Shown: positions 30,167 to 59,608 of the stretch, piece after piece
How the letters are laid out: each line of letters begins with the position of its first letter
Numbering within the stretch: the first letter of the stretch is position 1
From: Histomonas meleagridis
Taxonomy: Eukaryota > Parabasalia > Tritrichomonadida > Dientamoebidae
Direction of reading: 5' to 3'
DNA: 64,000 nucleotides
Assembly: GCA_020186115.1 (NCBI GenBank)
Contig: WSYJ01000147.1
Location: 1 to 64,000, forward strand
Translations under genes and position numbers: made by a program
Notes under the pieces: model-generated
The model's input: only the letters and a program-made list of their open reading frames with translations
Told to the model about the DNA's origin: nothing
Database searches by the model: none

Positions 30167-32053
30167 GTGTTTGGTATCACAAGTCATATTACCATCGATA
30201 ATAAAATTTCAAAAAATATTCAGTTATTGCAGCTTATAGAGCAAACAATATTTAATTTAAATAATAATAATATTTCAGCATCTGTTGAATCTTTATCAAA
30301 TAATTATTCAAAAGAATTTCCTTATTCATTTAGTTTTATTATTTATTCAATTATATACTCATGTTTTACATCAAAGGGTTTTTATAAAATATATTTTGAG
30401 TTTTTAGAAAAACTTGAAACTATAGAAATGAAGAATTTCAATAACACAAATAACAAAATAACAGAAATTTTTGCAAATTGGTTTTTTCTTCGTAAGCAAG
30501 AAGCGAATTACCTTCTTGAAAAGATTGAAAGGCAAAAGAACATTATATTTTGTGCATCTTCTGAAAAGTGATGAAATAAATAAATATTTTTTTGATAAAT
30601 GGAATGTTAAATTAATTGATTATGCAGCATTTTCCGGATCGATTAAATGTTTCAGATGTTTGTTAATGAATGGTGCCAATGTAGAAAACACAGGTAAATA
30701 TGCAGTTGCAGGTAGAAATGAAGAAATCATTCATTTATGTGAACGAAATCATTCAATATTTGAAGATGTATCTGAGACAGCAATTGAATTCCATCAAAAT
30801 GATGTATTTAAATATATTTATGAGAATAAATTAAAAAAAATTGATGATATGCAGAAGTTAGGAGAAAAATGTATAATGTTTTATAATTTTGAAATTTTAT
30901 CATTTCTGAGAGAAAATAGTTTGAAAATCGATAAGAACCTTATCATTAATTCAATTGAGAGCGGAAATATTTTTGTTCTGCAATATTTTTACCAAATAAA
31001 TCCTATTCAAGCACGCAACATTCACACAAATGAAATTGTTGCAATCAAAACAATTAAACTGAAGCATCTCAATAGAACCGAAAAATCAAAAGCCCTCAAA
31101 GAAGCTCAGCTTCTTTCCAAACTCCACCATCCAAATATTGTTTCCTATAAAGAATCATGGACAAAAAACGAGAAACTTTATATTGTCATGGAGTACATTG
31201 AAGGTGGTGATTTAGGCAAAGTCATCAAAAAACGCCATGGAACTCTTTTTCGTGAATCAGAAGTTCTCCATTATTTTGTCCAACTTGTTTCCGTCATTGA
31301 TTATATTCATTCCAATCATATTCTTCATCGTGATCTTAAACCCGACAACATTTTTGTAACCAAGACCAACATGATCAAACTTGGAGATTTTGGGGTAGCT
31401 CGATCACTTGACAATACATTTGACATGGCCAATACAGTCATTGGGACACCATATTACTTATCCCCAGAGATCTGGGAAGGCAAGCCATATGATTCTCATT
31501 CTGATATTTATAGTTTGGGTGTTATTCTTTATGAACTATGCGCACTTAAAAAACCATATGAAGCGCCTAATGCATTAGCGCTTTGTTCCATTGTAACTAA
31601 AGGGGGAACACGAGGACATCCCTGAACATATATTCTGATGACCTTAAAAACCTTGTTAACCGAATGTTATCACTTGATCCACATCAACGTCCAACAGCAC
31701 GCGAAATAAAACAAATGAAAATAATTACAAAAGGCGCAATTAACATTATCAACAAGAACCAAACAATAATATCGAAGCAAATTAATTCGCCAAAGCGAAA
31801 AAGATTATTGAACTTAAACTTAATGAATAATACAAATGCTAATGAACAAGAAAATATTCCATTTAATGACTTCATCGACGAAGATGATGAAAACGAAGAA
31901 GAAGAAATGGTAATCGAAGACGACTTCATTGAAGATGACTTCATTAAGGAAGAAGAGGAGGAAGAAGAGGAAATGGACGAGGAGCAGCTGTTCTTGTTGC
32001 AGGAAACGTCAAACGCTTTGAGGCAGTCAATCATTATCAGTCCAATGAAATAG
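30167..32053 (+). pseudogene. Chimeric pseudogene: ankyrin-family N-terminus fused to a NEK-type kinase
   Basis: The first part (30167 to ~31000) matches the N-terminal domain of the two ankyrin-family genes at 43831-45180 and 53414-54544 (LIDYAAFSGSIKCF, GKYAVAGRNEEIIHLCE, FHQNDVFKYI). It has no ATG, breaks frame near 30545-30571 and lacks about 90 residues present in the relatives. At about 31005 it switches to a NEK-like kinase starting inside the N-lobe: VAIK lysine, HRDLKPDN, DFG and GTPYYLSPE are present, but the glycine loop is missing. Near 31603 a run of five G shifts frame to an early stop, and a second shift in the CATATATTC stretch restores the frame for MLSLDPHQRPTAREI and a long acidic tail (31664-32053). 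It is a recombination product, non-functional as it stands. Confidence 0.85.
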
Positions 32054-35799: not shown

Positions 35800-36720
35800 A
35801 TTATCACCATATAAAGCCAATTTTAACAAATCAAGTAACCATTAAATAAGTATTTTTGACATTTCTTGTGTTTCTGATAATAAAGAACTTTTCAAATACT
35901 TAATCAATGAGAAAATTATTGGATGTTTTGAAAAAGAAAAACATTTTATATTTTTATTAAATGTTTATATCAATGATTTAATATTTGATAATAATATTTG
36001 TTTTCTGATAATATTTGAAAGCTGTTTAAATTATTTGAAACGCCGCTTATATTTGCATCTCTGAAAAATCATATAGATATTGTTAGATTTCTTATTAAAC
36101 AATAAGGGACTGATATTAATGCAAAAATAATTTATTTGCGTTAGTTATAATTTATTATATTTAATTAAGGTATTAAAAAAATATTTGGAATTTATTAAAA
36201 ATATTTAATACGGCTCTTGACATGGCATTTTTATGCGATAATACCCAAATTGTTAAGTTACTTCTTAAACAAGAATGAATTAATATTAATTCTTAAGATA
36301 TTTTAATATCTTATTCATTATTTATTTTAACTATTTTTTGTTTTGAAAAAATATTTGGAATTTATATAAAATATTTAACACACCACTTATTGTTGCCTGT
36401 AAATCTTTTAATGTAAAAGCTGTTAAATTACTTCTTGAGCAAAAAGGAATTGATATTAATGAGTATCTCAAGATATTAATTTTAAATATTTTATATTTCA
36501 AAATAATATTTGGAAATTCATTTGCTTTCAATGTTCAAGATATTTATTTATTTTGTTTAAAGCTTATTTTAATAATTTTATATTCTAAATTAATATTTGG
36601 AAACTTTTAAAATTTTTTGATACGGCACTCGTATATGCAGCGAAATGTGGCTTTGAAGAAATAGTAAAATTTCTTCTTGACCATGAAATAAACGATGAAG
36701 CTATTGCTAAAAAGGTTGAA
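35800..36720 (+). pseudogene. Relic of an ankyrin-family gene with 170-bp units
   Basis: Plus-strand relic. Around 35880 it reads SDNKELFKYLINEKIIG, like the N-terminal region of the family, then four decayed ankyrin units: TPLIFASLKNHIDIVRFLIKQ-stop, TALDMAFLCDNTQIVKLLLKQE-stop, TPLIVACKSFNVKAVKLLLE and TALVYAAKCGFEEIVKFLLD. The GATATTAAT landmarks at 36112, 36282 and 36452 are exactly 170 apart, with AATATTTGGAA spacers between. Stops inside ankyrin segments show that it is dead. Confidence 0.8.
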
Positions 36721-39339: not shown

Positions 39340-39640
39340 AGAAAGTTACAGCAGATAATGTTGAATGCATCATCTATTAATTCATCTTCAAAAGCTTATA
39401 CAGAAATCATTAAGTTGCTTCTTGCACAAGGAATTGATATTATTGCTAAAGACACTTATTTGTTTTGTTTAGAATATATTTAATAATATTATATTTCAAA
39501 TAATATTTGGAAATTGTTTAAAATTATTTAAAACAATACTTATATGTGCAAATAGTCATGCAGAAATAGTTAAATTACTTTTTGAACAAATAGGGATTTT
39601 TATTTGTTTTATTTCATATTAATTTTTAAAATTTCATGTT
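39340..39640 (+). pseudogene. Relic of ankyrin units
   Basis: Two decayed ankyrin units in plus orientation: ASSINSSSKAYTEIIKLLLA then GIDIIAKDTYLF, the AATATTTGGAAATT spacer, and a second, shorter unit TILICANSHAEIVKLLFEQ. No start, no flanking N-terminal domain. Confidence 0.7.
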
Positions 39641-41871: not shown

Positions 41872-43830
41872 TTATTTAATGTCTTTGCGTTTGTTTTGAG
41901 TTGATAAATCAAGTGCTGATTTAAATAATTTAAATAATTTCCAAATATTATTTTGAAATATCAAATTATTAAAATAAATTTTAAATAAAACAAATAAATA
42001 TCTTTAGCATTAATATCAATTCCTTCTTGCTTAAGAAGTAATTTAAATATTTTTGTATGACCTTTTTCAGATGCCCACATAAGTGCTGTTTTAGATATTT
42101 TATATAATTTCCAAATATTATTTTGAAATATCAAATTATTAAAATAAATATCAAATAAAACAAATAAATATCTTTAGCATTAATATCAATTCCTTCTTGC
42201 TTAAGAAGTAATTTAAATATTTTTGTATGACCTTTTTCAGATGCCCAGGTAAGTGCTGTTACAAATAATTTAAATAATTTCCATATATTATTTTGAAATA
42301 TAAAATTATTTAAATAAATATCAAATAAAACAAATAAATATTTTTAGCATTAATATCAATTCCTTTTTGTTCAAGAAGTAATTTAACTATTTCTATATGA
42401 CCATTTGAAGATGCAGATATAAGTGATGTATTAAATAATTTAAATGATTTCCAAATATTATTTTGAAATATAAAATTATTTAAATAAATATCAAATAAAA
42501 CAAATAAATATTTTTAGCATTAATGTCAATTCCTTCTTGTTCAAGAAGTAATTTAACTGTTTCTGTATGACCATTTATAGATGCCCACATAAGTGCTGTC
42601 ATAAAAAATTTAAATAATTTCCAAATATTATTTTGAAATATTAAATTATTAAAATAAATATTAAATAAAACAAATAAATATTTTTAGCATTAATATCAAT
42701 TCCTTCTTGTTCAAGAAGTAATTTAACGATTTCGATGTTACCAATTTCAGATGCCCACATAAGTGCTGTTTCAATTATTTTTAATATTTTCCAAATATTA
42801 TTTTGCATTTTCAAATTATTTATATAAAAATAAAACAAAGCAAATAAATATTTCCATAATTAATATCAATTCCTTCTTGTTCAAGAAGTAATTTAACTAT
42901 TTCTTCATGACTATCATTAATTGCACCCATAAGTGCTGTTTTACTATATATTTTAAAGAATTTCCAAAATTTATTTTGAATGTTCAAACTATTAAAATAA
43001 GTTTCAAATAAGACAAATAAATTTTTTCGTTGATATCAATTCCTTCTTGTTCAAGAAGTAATTTAACTATTTCTGTATCACCATATGAAGATGCATAAAT
43101 AAGTGCTGTATTAAATAATTTAAACAATTTCCAAATATTATTTTGATATATCAAATTATTGAAATAAATATTAAATAAAACAAATAAATATTTTTAGCAT
43201 TAATATCAATTCCTTTTTGTTCAAGAAGTAATTTAACTATTTCTATATGACCATTTGAAGATGCACAAATAAGTGCTGTATTAAATAATTTAAATAATTT
43301 TCAAATATTATTTTGAAATATTAAATTATTAAAATAAATATTAAATAAAACAAACAAATATCTTTAGCATTAATATCAATTCCTTCTTGTTCAAGAAGTA
43401 AATTAACTATTTCTATATGACCTTTTGAAGTTGCTTTCATAAGTGCTGTATTAAATAATTTATATAATTTCCAAATATTATTTCGAAATATTATATTGTT
43501 AAAAATTATATTAAATTAAACAAACAAATATCTTTAGCATTAATATCAATTCCTTCTTGTTCAAGAAGTAATTTAACGATTTCTATATGACCTTTTTCAG
43601 ATGCTAACGTAAGTGCTGTAGTAAATATTTTAAATAATTTCCAAATATTATTTTGAAATATCAAATTATTTAAATAAATATCAAATAAAACAAATAAATG
43701 GTTTTAGCATTGATGTCTATTCCTTTTTGTTCAAGTAGTAATTTAACTATTTCTATATATCCAAAACCAGATGCATTTATAAGTGATGTATAAAATAATT
43801 GAAATAATTTCCAAATATTACATTGAAATA
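41872..43830 (-). repeat. Array of 11 ankyrin units with spacers, 170-bp period (array A)
   Basis: Directly downstream of the ankyrin-family frame at 43831-45180. The landmark TAATATCAAT (or close variant) recurs at 43881, 43711, 43541, 43371, 43201, 43031, 42861, 42691, 42521, 42351, 42181 and 42011: eleven intervals, all 170. Each unit codes an ankyrin repeat such as TALMWASEIGNIEIVKLLLE followed by QEGIDINAK, with no stop or frameshift in any of eleven full units. Between units lies an AT-rich spacer with a stop and a frame change. A last partial unit reads KSALDLSTQNKRKDIK and stops at 41872-41874, a plausible C-terminus. Confidence 0.9.
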
Positions 43831-45180
43831 TCAAAATGTTAGAATAAATCTCAAATTATTGAAATGAATATCATTTCCATTAATATCAATTCCTTTTTGC
43901 TTTAAAATATATTTGACAAGTTCAATGTTTCCTGAATATGAAGAATATGATAAAATATTTTTTGGGATCTTATAATTTAATTGAAAATATTCCACTAAAA
44001 AGATGTTACCGATCCTTGCTGATTCATTAATAATATCATCGTCAATTTTCATTCCATTTTCAAGTAAGAATGAAAAGATTTCATAGTTATGATATAAAAT
44101 ACAAAATTTTCCTAATTTTTCTAAGCTGTACGTTACTTCTAAATTATCCTCATATAACTTATACGCATTAAAGCCTACAGCTTTACTATCATCACTGTCA
44201 TCACTTGAATCATTATTACTAGTAGAGCTTTGAAACTGATCATTTTCTTCTAGTTTTTCTAATTTCTTTTCAAAAATATATTTAAAGATATCATTTTGAT
44301 GAAATTTTATCGCTGTTTCATATGCACCTTTAAATGATGCATGATTTTGTTCACATAAATGAATGATTTCTGCATTTCCACTTGCAATTGCATATTTACC
44401 TGTATAATAAACATCTGCATCATTCATAAGTAAATATTTAAAACATTTAATTGAACCAAAAAATGCTGCATAATCAATTAATGAAACATTCCATAGATTA
44501 ATAAAATCACATCTTTCATAAATTGATTGCTTAATAAGTTGATTAAACCTAAAATCATTTTGTGATGAAATTTTTTGAAGTTTTTCAACATCATCATTCC
44601 GGATTATTTCTGCAATTCCAAATGTATTATCTCCTTCTTTTATGAATTGTTTATGAAGTTCCCAATCATTCTTTGATAGTTTATCATAATTTTCTTGGAT
44701 TTGCTCGAAATAATTATCTTTTTCTAATTCATTAATTTCTTCTTCAGACATATATTGTATAAAATATGGTTCGTTTATATCTTTGGTAATTTTTGATTCA
44801 ATGAAATTATTTTCAATGAAATACTCAAGAATATAAAATGTTTCTTGATCATATTTGTGTTCATCCAAAAGAAAACTTGTAAGTGCTTCTAAAATTTTAG
44901 GTTTGTTGTTATTCTCTTCATATTGTTCAATTTTTTTTATAAAATCAAAATAAATTTCATAATAATTTACTCGCATACTAAAACGTATATATATCATTTG
45001 ACTAATAACAAGGTTAAATGAGTAAAAATGGTTTCCATCAAATTTAGTGATTAAAGAATTAAACGATTGAATAATATTGTCTTCATTCAAGTTGAAAATT
45101 ATTTGTTTAATGAATACAAGGAATTCCCATTTGTTGTGAATTATTTGTTTCGTCTTTTTTTCTTCCCTTTGGTTGCTCAT
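43831..45180 (-). CDS. Ankyrin-family protein (DUF3447-like N-terminal domain), gene A
   Basis: The frame opens at a TTG (45225), but the first ATG is 45180 (MSNQREEKKTKQ), giving 449 residues. The N-terminal ~200 residues are a helical domain shared with the gene at 53414-54544 and the chimera at 30167. The core LIDYAAFFGSIKCFKYLL, GKYAIASGNAEIIHLCE and KFHQNDIFKYIFEKKL is the DUF3447/ankyrin-type block very common in trichomonads. The first ankyrin repeat (SYSGNIELVKYILKQ) runs into a spacer and stops. Eleven more intact units follow downstream (array A), so the true protein may be far longer. Role: unknown, protein binding expected. Confidence 0.8.
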   Translation of the reverse strand: MSNQREEKKTKQIIHNKWEFLVFIKQIIFNLNEDNIIQSFNSLITKFDGNHFYSFNLVISQMIYIRFSMRVNYYEIYFDFIKKIEQYEENNNKPKILEALTSFLLDEHKYDQETFYILEYFIENNFIESKITKDINEPYFIQYMSEEEINELEKDNYFEQIQENYDKLSKNDWELHKQFIKEGDNTFGIAEIIRNDDVEKLQKISSQNDFRFNQLIKQSIYERCDFINLWNVSLIDYAAFFGSIKCFKYLLMNDADVYYTGKYAIASGNAEIIHLCEQNHASFKGAYETAIKFHQNDIFKYIFEKKLEKLEENDQFQSSTSNNDSSDDSDDSKAVGFNAYKLYEDNLEVTYSLEKLGKFCILYHNYEIFSFLLENGMKIDDDIINESARIGNIFLVEYFQLNYKIPKNILSYSSYSGNIELVKYILKQKGIDINGNDIHFNNLRFILTF

Positions 45181-52236: not shown

Positions 52237-53413
52237 TTATCTTTTTCTTCTTGATTTATTATTACTAATGTACTTCGGGGATACTTGTCTTCTTATTAAA
52301 CCAACTATTTCTCTATAACCATTTCTAGACGCAAACATAAGTGCTGTCCAAAATAATTTAAATAATTTCCAAATATTATTTTGAAATAAAAAATTATTAA
52401 AATAAATATCAAATAAAACAAATAAATAGTTTTAGCATTAATGTCAATTCCTTTTTGTTCAAGAAGGAATTTAACTGTTTCTGTATGACCATTTCTAGAT
52501 GCACAAATAAGTGCTGTATTAAATATTTTTTATCATTTCCAAATATTATATTTAAATCTTAAATTATTTAAATAAATATCAAATAAAACAAATAAATATC
52601 TTTAGCATTAATATCAATTCCTTCTTGTTCAAGAAGTATTTTAACTATTTCTATATGACCATTTTCAGATGCAAAAATAAGTGATATTTGAAATAATTTA
52701 AATTATTTCCAAATATTATTTTGATATATCAAATTATTGAAATAAATATTAAATAAAACAAATAAATATTTTTAGCATTAATATCAATTCCTTCTTGTTC
52801 AAGAAGTAATTTAACGATTTCGATGTTACCAATTTCAGATGCAAAAATAAGTGCTGTTTTATTATATATTTTAAATAATTTCCAAATATTATTTTGAAAT
52901 ATAAAATTATTAAAATATATATTATATAAATCAAATAAATACTTTTAATATTTATATCAATTCCTTCTTGTTCAAGAAGTAGTTTAACTATTTCTATATG
53001 ACCAATTAAAGATGCTCTAATAAGTGCTGTGTTAAATAATTGAAATAATTTCCAAATATTTTTTAAAAATCCAAAATTATTAAAATAAATAATATCTTGA
53101 GCATTAATATCAATTCCTTCTTGTTCAAGAAGTAATTTAACTATTTCTGTATGTCCATTTTCAGATGCAAAAATAAGTGCTGTTTTAAATAATTTAAATT
53201 ATTTTCAAATATTATTTTGAAAAATTGATATTAAATAAAACAAATAAATATCTTTAGTATTAATATCAATTCCATCTTGCCCAAGAAGTAAATTAACTAT
53301 TTCTATATTACCATTTTCAGATGCTTTCATAAGTTCCTTATTAAATGATTTAAATAATTTCCAAATATAATTTTGAAATATCAAATTATTTTAATAAAAC
53401 TCAAACAAATTCT
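52237..53413 (-). repeat. Array of ankyrin units with spacers of variable length (array B)
   Basis: Downstream of the frame at 53414-54544. Landmarks lie at about 53429, 53262, 53105, 52952, 52779, 52609 and 52439, giving intervals 167, 157, 153, 173, 170, 170. Six full ankyrin units (for example TALIFASENGHTEIVKLLLE and TALIRASLIGHIEIVKLLLE) have no stop or frame change. A last unit TALMFASRNGYREIVGLIRR ends in a basic tail and a stop at 52237-52239. All length differences fall in the spacers. Confidence 0.88.
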
Positions 53414-54544
53414 TCAAACATTTTGTTTTAAGTCAATATATTTATGTTTTATAAGGTAATTAAACAGTTCTTTATTACCAGAAAAACTTGAAATCTCTGA
53501 AAAATTTATTTGTTTTGATATTTTATCTTGAAAATATTGGAAAACAAATAAATTCCCATTAATGATTGATGCAATAAGAATCAATTGATCAGCTTGCATT
53601 CCTTCTTCTTCTAAAAATGAAAGAATATTATAATTGTCATACAAAACACATTTCTTCCCTAAAAATTGTAAATTATTATTAATATCCTTATGATTTTCAT
53701 CCAAATAATAAAATATATCATTTTGATGTAATTCAATTGCTGCTTCATATGCACCTTTAAAAGATGAATGATTTTGCTCACATAAATGAACTATTTCAAT
53801 ATTTCCACCTGCAACTGCATATTTACCTGTATTTAATACATTTGAATTATTCATAAGTAAATATTTAAAACATTTAATTGATCCAAAAAATGCTGCATAA
53901 TCAATTAATGTAACATTACTTTGGTTAATAAATGAACATCTTTCATAAAGTGATGGTTCAATTGTTTGATTAAAATCAAAATTTGTTTGTGATGATATCT
54001 CTTGAAGTTTTTCTATTTCATCATTTCGTATTATTTTTGCAATTGTATTCGGATTAACTCCTTCTTTAATTAATTGCTTATGGAGTTCAATATTATTCTC
54101 TTTAAGTTCTTCTGTTTGCTTGTTAATATTTTCTTTTTCTGGGAAATAATGCATAAAATATGAATTCTTTTTAGTTTGGATAATTTTTGGTTCAATTAAT
54201 TCATCTTCAATCATTTTTTCTAGAAGATAATTTGATTCTTGACTATCAGTTGATAATAATATTTGTGTGAAGATGTTGATGATATTATAACTTGACTTTG
54301 CTTCAATTGTTTGTAAATACTTGAAACATAATTTTTCATAGCCACGTGATACAAAATATGAATAAATAATTCGACAAATGATATGTAGAAAAGAATATTG
54401 AAATTCTAAACAAATGTAATTTAATGAAGATTCAACTAATTGATCAATATTATATTCATTTAAATCAAATATAATTTTTTCTAAATCTTGTAATATTTGA
54501 AGATTTCCTTTGTAAGTTGTTGTGTGACTTTGACTTCCCCCCAT
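53414..54544 (-). CDS. Ankyrin-family protein (DUF3447-like N-terminal domain), gene B
   Basis: 376 residues from ATG 54544 (MGGSQSHTTTYKG). Same layout as gene A: helical N-terminal domain (LEKIIFDLNEYNIDQLVESS), linker, LIDYAAFFGSIKCFKYLLMN, GKYAVAGGNIEIVHLCEQNH, ELHQNDIFYYLDEN, then one ankyrin repeat (EISSFSGNKELFNYLIK) that meets a stop. Six to seven intact ankyrin units follow (array B). AACGGTG lies about 50 bases upstream. Binding partner unknown. Confidence 0.8.
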   Translation of the reverse strand: MGGSQSHTTTYKGNLQILQDLEKIIFDLNEYNIDQLVESSLNYICLEFQYSFLHIICRIIYSYFVSRGYEKLCFKYLQTIEAKSSYNIINIFTQILLSTDSQESNYLLEKMIEDELIEPKIIQTKKNSYFMHYFPEKENINKQTEELKENNIELHKQLIKEGVNPNTIAKIIRNDEIEKLQEISSQTNFDFNQTIEPSLYERCSFINQSNVTLIDYAAFFGSIKCFKYLLMNNSNVLNTGKYAVAGGNIEIVHLCEQNHSSFKGAYEAAIELHQNDIFYYLDENHKDINNNLQFLGKKCVLYDNYNILSFLEEEGMQADQLILIASIINGNLFVFQYFQDKISKQINFSEISSFSGNKELFNYLIKHKYIDLKQNV

Positions 54545-56221: not shown

Positions 56222-59200
56222 ATGAAAAGATTTTGCCGTCTTTCGATGCCTCTTGATTCAATTAAGAATATATCTTCTATATATTTTCAAGATGATTTTT
56301 GTTTTAGTTTTGGAGACAAAAAAGTATACTGTAATAAATTTATTGCTGATTTGATTTCACCAGAAGTTGAAAGCATTCATCGTTCTGATCAAACAGTCAA
56401 TAACTTCGAAGTTGACTATGAAGGTAGTGATGGTGATATGCAACTTCTTTTATCAATGTTCACTAAAAATCATGCTGATATTCCCTCAGACAAAGTAAAT
56501 GACATATTTGATCTTTGTCTTGCATTAGGGAATGCAACACTGGCGAGGCAATTACGTGGATTTATGAAAGATAATACAAAAGAAAACGAAGTATCAAAAT
56601 CAGATTTATTTATTATAACAGTTCAAACATTATTAGAGCGGACATTTAAATTTGAAGTTTCACCAACTGACACCGTTCGTACCTTAAAAGAAAAGCTTCA
56701 TGAACGGGAAGGATTTCCAATTGATTCCCAACGACTTTTATTTAAAGGCCGCGAAATCGATAACTGTTATACATTTGACGAATGCCAAATCAAAGCGAAT
56801 TCGTTGGTCAACTTATTTTTCCGTAATTCATCACCAACCCATTCGAATGGGCAAATTCAAATATCCATAAAATCATTAAAAGGACAAATCATAAAGATGA
56901 AAGTTATAATGGATGATACAGTTAGTAAATTAAAAGAACAAATTTCATCGATAGATGGAGTACCGATTGAAAACCAAAAACTTTTTTATCGTGACACTGA
57001 ATTAGATAACACTAAAACCTTAAAATTCTATAGAATCAGACGAAATGCGGAAGTTCAATTTCAATTTTCATATAATGGAACTCCGAAACAAATAATATTT
57101 ACTAATCCATTTGATATAAACATAAATTCAACATATGATAACAAAACAAATACATATAAAATGAATGTTAAATCTAATGATACGATTCAACACTTAAAAC
57201 AACAAATATGTAAAACAACAAATATTTCGACTGAACTACAAGAACTTATATTTTATGAATTTCATTTAGATGACACTAAAATAATCGGTGACTATGGTAT
57301 TGAACCTGAGTCAACGATTATTTTAAACAAAGCAAAAGGAATTAAAGTTATAGTTGTATTTTTATCTGGAAAAAATGAATATGAAGTTACATTAAGAGAT
57401 AAAGTCCGAAGTTTAAAGGAAAAAGTATCTAAGAAAACACAAATTCCAATCGAAAAACTTCGCCTTATTTATAATGGGGATATAATGATTGATGGAGAAG
57501 CATTAAAATTTTATCAAATTCAAAATGGTTCAATTATTCAAGCGTCACAAAAAGTTGATAAATCATTAAATAAAGACATTATTAAAATAAAAATTAAAAC
57601 ATCAGATGATGAACATTATGATTTAGAAGTATCAAAAAATGATACAATACAAAGTTTAAAGGAAAAAATTAATAAAATAGCAAAAATTCCATTTGAATTT
57701 CAACGACTTCTTTATAAGCAATGTCAATTAGAAGATAAAAACAAAATAAATGATTATGATATTTCACCTAATTCTGTTGTTATTGTATATAATGATAATA
57801 AACAACAAGTTACATTAACAAATGGAAAACCATTTATAATCGAAATTAAAACTATCGAAGGAGAAGTTTATGAATTTGAAGTTACAGCAAATGATACAAT
57901 ACAAAGTTTAAAAGAACAAATAAAACAAAAAACAGATTTTCCAATTGAAGCACAACGTCTTATATATGATGAAAAAGAATTAGAAGATTCAGATAGACTT
58001 AAAGATTATTATATACTATCGTATTCAACAATTTATCTATTAATTCCACTTGAAATGATGAAAATGAAAACATTTAAAATAAATGTTAAAACGTTAACTC
58101 CTTCTTCAATTAAAGAAACATATGAATTTGAAGTTACATTTGATGAAACAATACAAAGTCTTAAAGAAAAAATATGCCAAAGAACAGAAATTTCAATAGA
58201 AAGACAACGACTAATTTATATATTAAAAGAATTAGAAAATTCACATACACTTATTGATTATCATATTTTCCCTAATTCTGAATTAATATTAGACGTATTA
58301 AAGATAAATAATAATTATAATCCAACCGAAAAACAAGATAAACCAATTCATTTGTATCTTAAAACACTTCAAGGAAGTTTTTATGAAAAGACTGTTCAAC
58401 CAAATGATACAATACAAAGCTTGAAAATTAAAATGAATCAAACAAACAAATATTTCATTAATAATGGAATAGCTATGAATAATACAGATACATTTAAAGA
58501 TTATCATTTAAGTGATATGATATTTATATTAGATGATCCAAATGAAGATATCCCAATTAAAATAGATTATGCACACAAGAAGAAATTTGTGATTAACGTT
58601 AAAATCGTAGATACAGTTTTAAATTTAAAGCAAAAAATTTCACAAATTGAACATATTCCTGTTGAACAACAATGTTTATTCATGAATGATTTAATTTTGA
58701 AAGATTCTCGATTTCTTTGCAATTTTATTCAAGCTGAAACAGAAATATTTTTAATTCAACAAAAAGAATATTTATTATTATCACATTCAACAAATACAAA
58801 TTCATTTCCTATATATATAAAAACATTATGTGGATGTATTTTACCATTTGAAGTATCATCAAATGATACTGTCGAAGACTTAAAACAAAAAATTTCTTTA
58901 TGTACTTCAATTCCATCTGATCAAATGCGAGTTATTTATGCAGGTAAATCTTTAGGAGATTATGAAACTTTTGGTGATTGTAATGTTACAAATGGCTCAT
59001 TAATTCATTTTGTGACAAGACTTAGAGGTGGTAAACCAGTAATTTATATATATCCTAAAGAGAAAATGGATGTAAATGTTAAAGTTAACATCAAAGGTGA
59101 CTTTACTTGTACATATCCAAAGTATAATAATGAAACAGGTTGGAATGTGAACGTGAATGAAAATGGTATTATGACTAACAAAGATAATCCAAACTCTATC

Positions 59201-59608
59201 GAATATGATAGTTTGTTCTGGGAATGTTTGTTTGATGATAATGAATTTAAGTTTGATGAAGGTTTTGTTGTGTCAAAAGATGACGCGGAAATGTTTTTGG
59301 AAGAGAAGTTATATTATTTGGGACTGAGGGGTAAAGAATTAATTAGTTTCATTCAGTTTTGGCTGCCGCAAATACAAAGAAGTGATTACACAATGGTTAA
59401 GTTCTTAAGTGAAGAATATGAAAACGTGGCACAACTCGAAGTGACGCCGAAGCCGGACTGCGTAATTAGAGTGTTCATGATAATGAAAAACTTAAGGAAT
59501 AATAATAAAGTAGTGGAATTACCGGTGCAGAACTTGGAGAAGTTACATAAAGAACGTAATGGATATTCAGTGATCGAATGGGGCGGCTCAATACTGTACG
59601 ATGTTTAG
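56222..59608 (+). CDS. Protein with ten tandem ubiquitin-like domains and a C-terminal extension
   Basis: 1,128 residues from ATG. Residues 1-115 resemble the BTB-like N-terminal domain seen in trichomonad proteins (DDFCFSFGDKKVYCNKFIAD). Ten ubiquitin-like units follow at about 129-201, 211-282, 299-369, 373-442, 452-524, 537-608, 616-692, 707-772, 776-846 and 862-937, each with the DTIQSLKEKI, IP-xx-Q-RLIY and L-x-DY-I pattern. Only the last ends in RLRGG (933-937), and it is followed by KPVIYIYPKEK and a ~190-residue folded domain, a combination also known from other eukaryotes. Cleavage after GG would release the C-terminal domain. Individual units have diverged strongly from ubiquitin. 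A ubiquitin-scaffold role is inferred. Confidence 0.88.
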   Translation: MKRFCRLSMPLDSIKNISSIYFQDDFCFSFGDKKVYCNKFIADLISPEVESIHRSDQTVNNFEVDYEGSDGDMQLLLSMFTKNHADIPSDKVNDIFDLCLALGNATLARQLRGFMKDNTKENEVSKSDLFIITVQTLLERTFKFEVSPTDTVRTLKEKLHEREGFPIDSQRLLFKGREIDNCYTFDECQIKANSLVNLFFRNSSPTHSNGQIQISIKSLKGQIIKMKVIMDDTVSKLKEQISSIDGVPIENQKLFYRDTELDNTKTLKFYRIRRNAEVQFQFSYNGTPKQIIFTNPFDININSTYDNKTNTYKMNVKSNDTIQHLKQQICKTTNISTELQELIFYEFHLDDTKIIGDYGIEPESTIILNKAKGIKVIVVFLSGKNEYEVTLRDKVRSLKEKVSKKTQIPIEKLRLIYNGDIMIDGEALKFYQIQNGSIIQASQKVDKSLNKDIIKIKIKTSDDEHYDLEVSKNDTIQSLKEKINKIAKIPFEFQRLLYKQCQLEDKNKINDYDISPNSVVIVYNDNKQQVTLTNGKPFIIEIKTIEGEVYEFEVTANDTIQSLKEQIKQKTDFPIEAQRLIYDEKELEDSDRLKDYYILSYSTIYLLIPLEMMKMKTFKINVKTLTPSSIKETYEFEVTFDETIQSLKEKICQRTEISIERQRLIYILKELENSHTLIDYHIFPNSELILDVLKINNNYNPTEKQDKPIHLYLKTLQGSFYEKTVQPNDTIQSLKIKMNQTNKYFINNGIAMNNTDTFKDYHLSDMIFILDDPNEDIPIKIDYAHKKKFVINVKIVDTVLNLKQKISQIEHIPVEQQCLFMNDLILKDSRFLCNFIQAETEIFLIQQKEYLLLSHSTNTNSFPIYIKTLCGCILPFEVSSNDTVEDLKQKISLCTSIPSDQMRVIYAGKSLGDYETFGDCNVTNGSLIHFVTRLRGGKPVIYIYPKEKMDVNVKVNIKGDFTCTYPKYNNETGWNVNVNENGIMTNKDNPNSIEYDSLFWECLFDDNEFKFDEGFVVSKDDAEMFLEEKLYYLGLRGKELISFIQFWLPQIQRSDYTMVKFLSEEYENVAQLEVTPKPDCVIRVFMIMKNLRNNNKVVELPVQNLEKLHKERNGYSVIEWGGSILYDV

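Follow-up and report, generated by a model that had tools for sequence, protein, structure and literature searches.

Does the ankyrin array that follows gene A in the DNA of the poultry parasite Histomonas meleagridis belong to this gene and, if so, how could its scattered pieces be read as one protein? The locus lies in a stretch of 64,000 nucleotides (nt) of contig C83 (bases 1-64000), which we call the window and whose positions are used unless another contig is named; genome searches covered the 43,276,120-base-pair (bp) assembly. The first-pass annotation had described an exact 170-bp array of intact ankyrin segments, marked by twelve landmarks, with a +2 change of frame at each spacer and a sensible C-terminus with a stop at the end. 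All of these observations were borne out. Tandem Repeats Finder detected a period of 170 at 41911-43899 (11.7 copies, 85% matches, 0% indels), twelve unit starts are spaced by exactly 170 (43789, 43619 and so on down to 41919), the +2 shift per spacer is correct, and the final unit carries its own C-terminus and stop. The units translate as ankyrin: Pfam Ank was matched by all eight tested (six from array A and two from array B of a second gene), with E-values from 6.2e-6 to 2.9e-9, and the open frame upstream matches DUF3447 (4.7e-7) and Ank_2 (2e-8).

The division of the period proposed initially, 99 bases of ankyrin plus 71 of spacer, did not hold. The 170 bases correspond to 34 codons plus four non-coding elements of 17 nt, with single codons between the elements, so that three further codons within the spacer would be translated. 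The layout N-A-K-D[17]x[17]x[17]G[17]x-T-A-L gives the canonical ankyrin hairpin D-x-x-G-x-T once the elements are omitted; 285 of 325 spacers encode G at column 147, and at column 87 there are 189 with D and 89 with N. In a register test on these 325 spacers (45 arrays), stops expected from the base frequencies were compared with those observed at the predicted codons, columns 107, 127, 147 and 167. None was observed at any of the four, against 5.1, 18.7, 0.0 and 28.1 expected (51.9 in total). After removal of identical spacers within each array (264 left), 0 stops were found against 45.2 expected, a zero reached by 0 of 2000 column permutations, and for the remaining columns with at least three expected stops the ratio of observed to expected stops ranged from 0.26 to 1.14. 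At columns 107, 127 and 167 the single codon is hypervariable yet never a stop, and the most variable columns are those of these codons (mean 1.21 bits versus 0.35 in the elements). The same avoidance of stops is seen in the helix codons of the units (0 versus 62.0 and 64.8 expected), and the codon right before T-A-L is free of stops in 487 units. When the elements are read in phase, a stop is present in 315 of the 325 spacers.

The alternative of a single intron per repeat, ordinary or non-canonical and some 68-74 nt long, is hardly credible after this test: removal of 71 nt likewise preserves the frame of the units, but it explains neither the hypervariable codons without stops at columns 107 and 127, nor the length steps of 17 and 20 nt, nor the 17-nt elements that occur singly in other genes, described below. 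A single intron of 68-77 nt per repeat was thus superseded by the register test. Splicing by GT-AG within the spacer was also rejected, no constant GT or AG being present: among 409 whole spacers 42 are without GT, 284 without AG and 30 without both. Programmed frameshifting or read-through was rejected because class-2 spacers are open in the upstream frame in 159 of 346 cases and in the downstream frame in 258 of 346; neither frame is therefore kept open, and spacer stops occur near the neutral rate. Reassignment of TAA or TGA was rejected too: CAA changed to TAA once in a unit codon, but stops at a CAA-like spacer codon occur in 38 units from 17 arrays. Folding of whole spacers (about 71 nt) gave no clear RNA structure (z -0.02; end-to-end pairing 4.16 versus 4.85 shuffled; 9+9-nt end pairing 0.088 versus 0.043 shuffled), and the consensus fold was weaker than column-shuffled versions were on average.

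The elements themselves resemble RTTT-N10-TTT, with A or G at the start and TT at the end in 1199 of 1300, and both ends are U-rich. The spacer lengths agree with this grammar in 382 of 409 adjacent pairs, which can be expressed as whole elements plus 2-6 codons: a length of 153 corresponds to one element fewer, 173 to one codon more, and 150 to an element and a codon fewer, the missing ones differing between each of three arrays. Because 17a+3b yields many lengths, and because the fit of 164, 190 and 227 is purely formal, the length classes represent support rather than proof.

Comparison of units with spacers was proposed in the first-pass annotation as a check on whether the array is silent, and it revealed non-neutral units. 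We counted each change once per cluster and took the rates in the spacers as the neutral reference. Synonymous changes in conserved codons of the units follow the spacer rate (372 observed, 370.8 expected), while missense (753 versus 1314.7) and nonsense changes (8 versus 66.1) are depleted, the latter also at A/T sites only (3 versus 38.1). Six variable codons accumulate missense changes at 2.1 times the neutral rate; their nonsense excess is only apparent, because single changes were scored against the consensus codon. Spacers read in the frame of the next unit retain 0.75 to 1.0 of the expected nonsense changes. Two wrong-frame controls within the units gave nonsense ratios of 0.43 and 0.70, compared with 0.12 in the true frame; they fall below 1 because the true frame also holds these bases. 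Judged by these substitution patterns, the array is part of a gene under protein selection.

These counts bear on both silent-array scenarios raised at the outset. A satellite or pseudogene array homogenised by unequal crossing-over would account for the uniform period and the likeness of the units; we give it almost no credence, since stops are avoided in unit codons and in the single spacer codons, whereas the spacer bases accumulate changes at the synonymous rate. A store of silent cassettes that feed recombination into contiguous, expressed ankyrin genes, whether by VLR-like assembly or by gene conversion, would agree with the large number of similar arrays and with variation focused on few codons. 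It is very improbable as well, given that nonsense changes are depleted across the units of all clusters pooled, that the arrays keep a collinear order, from a first block through units to a terminal unit with its stop, and that one gene, on contig C55, combines hairpins with 0, 1 and 3 elements. The idea of a multi-intron gene fared better in part: coding units do appear to be joined across non-coding spacers, as nonsense is depleted in units and not in spacers, with first blocks at one end of the arrays and terminal units at the other, but in place of a single intron of about 71 nt each spacer holds four 17-nt elements, without GT-AG.

Gene A, which lies on the minus strand, may be parsed accordingly from end to end. 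Its first coding block (43870-45180; ATG at 45180), with DUF3447 and ankyrin matches in Pfam, ends at the D codon preceding the first element. Spacer 1 (43793-43869) comprises elements 43869-43853, 43849-43833, 43829-43813 and 43809-43793 with single codons between them, its parse giving 7 residues from N to T, and is followed by ankyrin coding block 1 (43700-43792), which runs from the x codon and T-S-L to K-T. Spacers 2 to 12 have four 17-nt elements each. Spacer 2 (43623-43699) precedes block 2 (43530-43622), and spacer 3 (43453-43529) precedes block 3 (43360-43452; Pfam Ank 9.1e-8); for spacer 3 the best scripted parse assigns two codons to one gap and leaves the following gap without any, and the regular 17+3 reading is stop-free too. 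Then follow spacer 4 (43283-43359) and block 4 (43190-43282; Ank 3.1e-9), spacer 5 (43113-43189) and block 5 (43023-43112), spacer 6 (42946-43022) and block 6 (42850-42945). Block 5 is shortened by one codon at its end; the hairpin across spacer 6 nevertheless keeps 7 residues, because block 6 begins one codon earlier. The array continues with spacer 7 (42773-42849) and block 7 (42680-42772; Ank 6.1e-9), spacer 8 (42603-42679) and block 8 (42510-42602; Ank 2.9e-9), spacer 9 (42433-42509) and block 9 (42340-42432), spacer 10 (42263-42339) and block 10 (42170-42262; Ank 2.5e-7), spacer 11 (42093-42169) and block 11 (42000-42092; Ank 1.9e-8), and is closed by spacer 12 (41923-41999) and the terminal block with the C-terminus and stop codon, assigned from its sequence (41872-41922). 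With the elements left out, all 12 hairpins have 7 residues between N and T.

The same elements occur in ankyrin genes of other contigs, which we segmented by eye. The C55 gene contains GAT[17]ATG-ACA-CCA and GGA[17]AAT-ACA-CCT, and its hairpins with 0, 1 and 3 elements are mixed; C50 has GAT-AAT[17]GAA-GGT[17]TTG-ACT-CCA, C99 has GAA[17]GAT[17]AGA-TCC-CCA, and C74 has AAA[17]TGT-TTT-CGT-GGA[17]TGT-ACA. Without the elements, seven residues separate the conserved N position from T in these genes, as in the uninterrupted C55 hairpins. Genome-wide, the pattern of GGTATTT or GGAATTT, a gap of 2-30 and TTTNNNACNCCNYT gave 21 and 94 matches, versus 7 and 4 in backward controls. The span from the Gly codon to the resume codon, allowed to vary from 9 to 37, was 17 in 98 of the 115 matches, 37 (that is, 17+3+17) in 6 and some other length in 11, and among 93 distinct 17-nt cases the resume codon was never a stop (9.2 expected). 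As the pattern preset the first four and last three bases of the element, these matches test its length and the codon and not the end motif. In the window outside ankyrin genes, an unbiased scan revealed no excess at length 17, and two motif matches were discarded, being by our own arithmetic in frame with a longer open frame.

Taken together, nucleotide comparison demonstrates that the pieces are selected as one frame, that the elements are untranslated and that element length is kept. Since selection treats the pieces as a single reading frame, the 17-nt elements are very probably omitted from the protein. The question is then at which step they are lost. The main rival to removal from RNA is translational bypassing, in which the ribosome would hop across every 17-nt element, comparable to T4 gene 60 and to the mitochondrial inserts of Magnusiomyces. 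It would account for the missing splice signals and for inserts between single codons, and several mitochondrial cases are described without perfectly matched codons (PMC5009743). However, the take-off codons are D, x, x and G, hypervariable at two of the four sites, TTT stands ahead of the resume codon in 272 to 307 of 325 spacers, and gene A would require 48 hops. With varied codons before the elements and TTT before the resume codons, re-pairing of the peptidyl-tRNA would be rare; bypassing is therefore disfavoured and we regard it as unlikely.

We suppose instead that the elements probably represent a new, length-defined class of micro-introns in ankyrin genes. The 17-nt intervening elements would sit at the codon boundaries of the ankyrin hairpin (D/x/x/G/x-T), and in the array family four of them per repeat would isolate three codons as coding pieces of 3 nt. 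Being cut from the RNA before translation, presumably by length, they would leave a product in which ankyrin repeats of 34 residues adjoin without interruption and present a varied surface. The genome encodes a Prp8 domain (2.8e-72) and a U6-like RNA (43.7 bits, just below the gathering score of 44), and a spliceosome therefore probably exists; U1 had no Rfam match, which is uninformative since control genomes were without a match too.

Several observations weigh against micro-introns and should be considered together. To our knowledge, no machine removes 17-nt introns around 3-nt exons. GT...AG ends are found in 0 of 1300 elements (GT starts in 27, AG ends in 0). The grammar does not cover 27 of 409 spacers (lengths 155, 169, 171 and 172), 12 of the 22 spacers of length 171 being in the array on contig C72, and lengths 164, 190 and 227 fit only formally, with adjacent elements, one "element" in a spacer of 227 being duplicated unit sequence. 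In the segmentation by eye, 18 nt are needed at one site each in C74 and C55, and one site each in C74 and C99 has no clean segmentation. Among the hairpins of gene B, only 3 of 7 have 7 residues, 2 have 8, and 2 are without a sensible scripted parse. Frameshifts were called in 14 of 466 units (7 of these units in C72; one call was false), and 5 units carry a stop, two of these resembling genuine terminal units. Finally, the two scans of the window mentioned above, open-frame scans of limited power run outside the ankyrin arrays, gave no convincing 17-nt element in a non-ankyrin gene, which would be odd for a general class of splicing.

Gene B is the second array-bearing gene of the window and also lies on the minus strand. 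Its first coding block (53414-54544, the open frame as listed, whose last bases run into the first element) matches DUF3447 (8e-8), and its array (52237-53419) consists of ankyrin blocks, spacers of 3 or 4 elements and a terminal block with a stop. On the plus strand there is a third, decayed ankyrin cluster (36041-36720) with stops in at least one unit and a 17-nt element at 36360-36376, and two weak unit matches form a two-hit cluster at 39368-39534. A DUF3447-kinase gene at 30167-31625 (+), kin to the first block, is apparently split by a frameshift and shows no visible 17-nt element, and 56222-59608 (+) is a large polyubiquitin-like gene with nine ubiquitin stretches.

The family extends over the genome. 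Array A as a DNA query had at least 90 matches (40 of 1779 first-look candidates scored), and the first block as a protein query at least 179 (94 of 6768 scored). The 60 returned loci and the window together contain 594 distinct units, which fall into 56 clusters spread over 36 contigs; a few clusters are single hits, and four lie in the window. All 30 returned first-block loci (94 scored) have units on the same strand no more than 1.5 kb downstream of the match. Public proteins gave 46 matches to the first block; of the 20 relatives whose sequences were inspected, 7 (P0001, P0005, P0007-P0010 and P0016) end directly behind K-D-I, K-G-I, Q-D-I or K-D-V, where the first element is expected to start, be it at a stop or at the end of a contig. 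In P0013 the first block is followed in frame by a single terminal ankyrin unit. No relatives' DNA was confirmed in viral and prokaryote contigs.

Other arrays vary in form. The longest cluster seen (G000, C72:128048-137364; L003, L006, L008, L013 and L014) has 40 units with many 1-nt insertions in units and spacers, and represents either a decayed array or read errors. A further ankyrin array with a 147-bp period (L070, G000 C79:14900-15600) has in-frame stops within its spacers. The long ankyrin gene at L065 (G000 C40:976600-978900) has an open frame of 766 codons; uninterrupted and interrupted ankyrin genes therefore coexist.

Variable residues fall at the codon before T, at four or more positions in the first helix and at the two x codons within the spacer. 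Several of them correspond to positions varied in designed ankyrin proteins, and therefore a diversified binding surface is likely. One can tentatively suggest a broader picture, in which a nuclear genome possesses a hitherto unknown, ruler-like way of excising 17-nt RNA elements, which would need next to no sequence signal and would act dozens of times on one message, between one single codon and the next. This excision may have been recruited to ankyrin proteins, with each variable surface codon placed in its own 20-nt module that could be swapped by recombination with the frame untouched.

For virulent H. meleagridis, 573 predicted introns with at most one per gene are reported (PMC8529796). 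If micro-introns of this kind exist, the reported picture would be overturned, and a kind of interrupted gene with single-codon coding pieces would be added to those known, with intervening sequences that lack GT-AG and are shorter than the trichomonad introns described in PMC12316389. The way in which cells define 17-nt pieces would become testable. It would likewise suggest that a large diversified ankyrin family is overlooked, because gene finders are not built to expect such a structure.

In the open-licence PMC literature, surveyed by title and opening lines of the abstract, we found neither 17-nt intervening elements nor arrays like these described, and the nearest parallels come from four systems. 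The spliceosomal introns of Trichomonas, described as types A and B with type B of 23-28 nt (PMC12316389), are similar in being short introns within the same phylum. Their motif ACTAACACACAG shows no enrichment in the genome (3 matches versus 2 in the control), and GTATGT combined with the fused ACTAACACACAG motif at gaps of 8-38 gave 0 genome matches. Stentor possesses tiny spliceosomal introns of 15-16 nt with GT-AG ends. They share an extremely short, nearly fixed length (PMC9505925) with our elements, of which the span is 17 in the great majority of pattern matches given above, whereas here GT...AG is absent and coding pieces of 3 nt separate the elements. The mitochondrial inserts of Magnusiomyces are likewise frame-breaking nucleotide blocks at many sites that are absent from the protein (PMC5009743); they differ in being mitochondrial and skipped in translation, while the elements described here are presumably nuclear, near-fixed in length and flanked by hypervariable codons. 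The non-conventional introns of euglenids and diplonemids, with ends described as pairing and median lengths of 91 nt in one species and 37 nt in another, are also without GT-AG and removed by a route described as unknown (PMC12621601). In contrast to them, the Histomonas elements are 17 nt long, U-rich at both ends and so far seen only in ankyrin hairpins.
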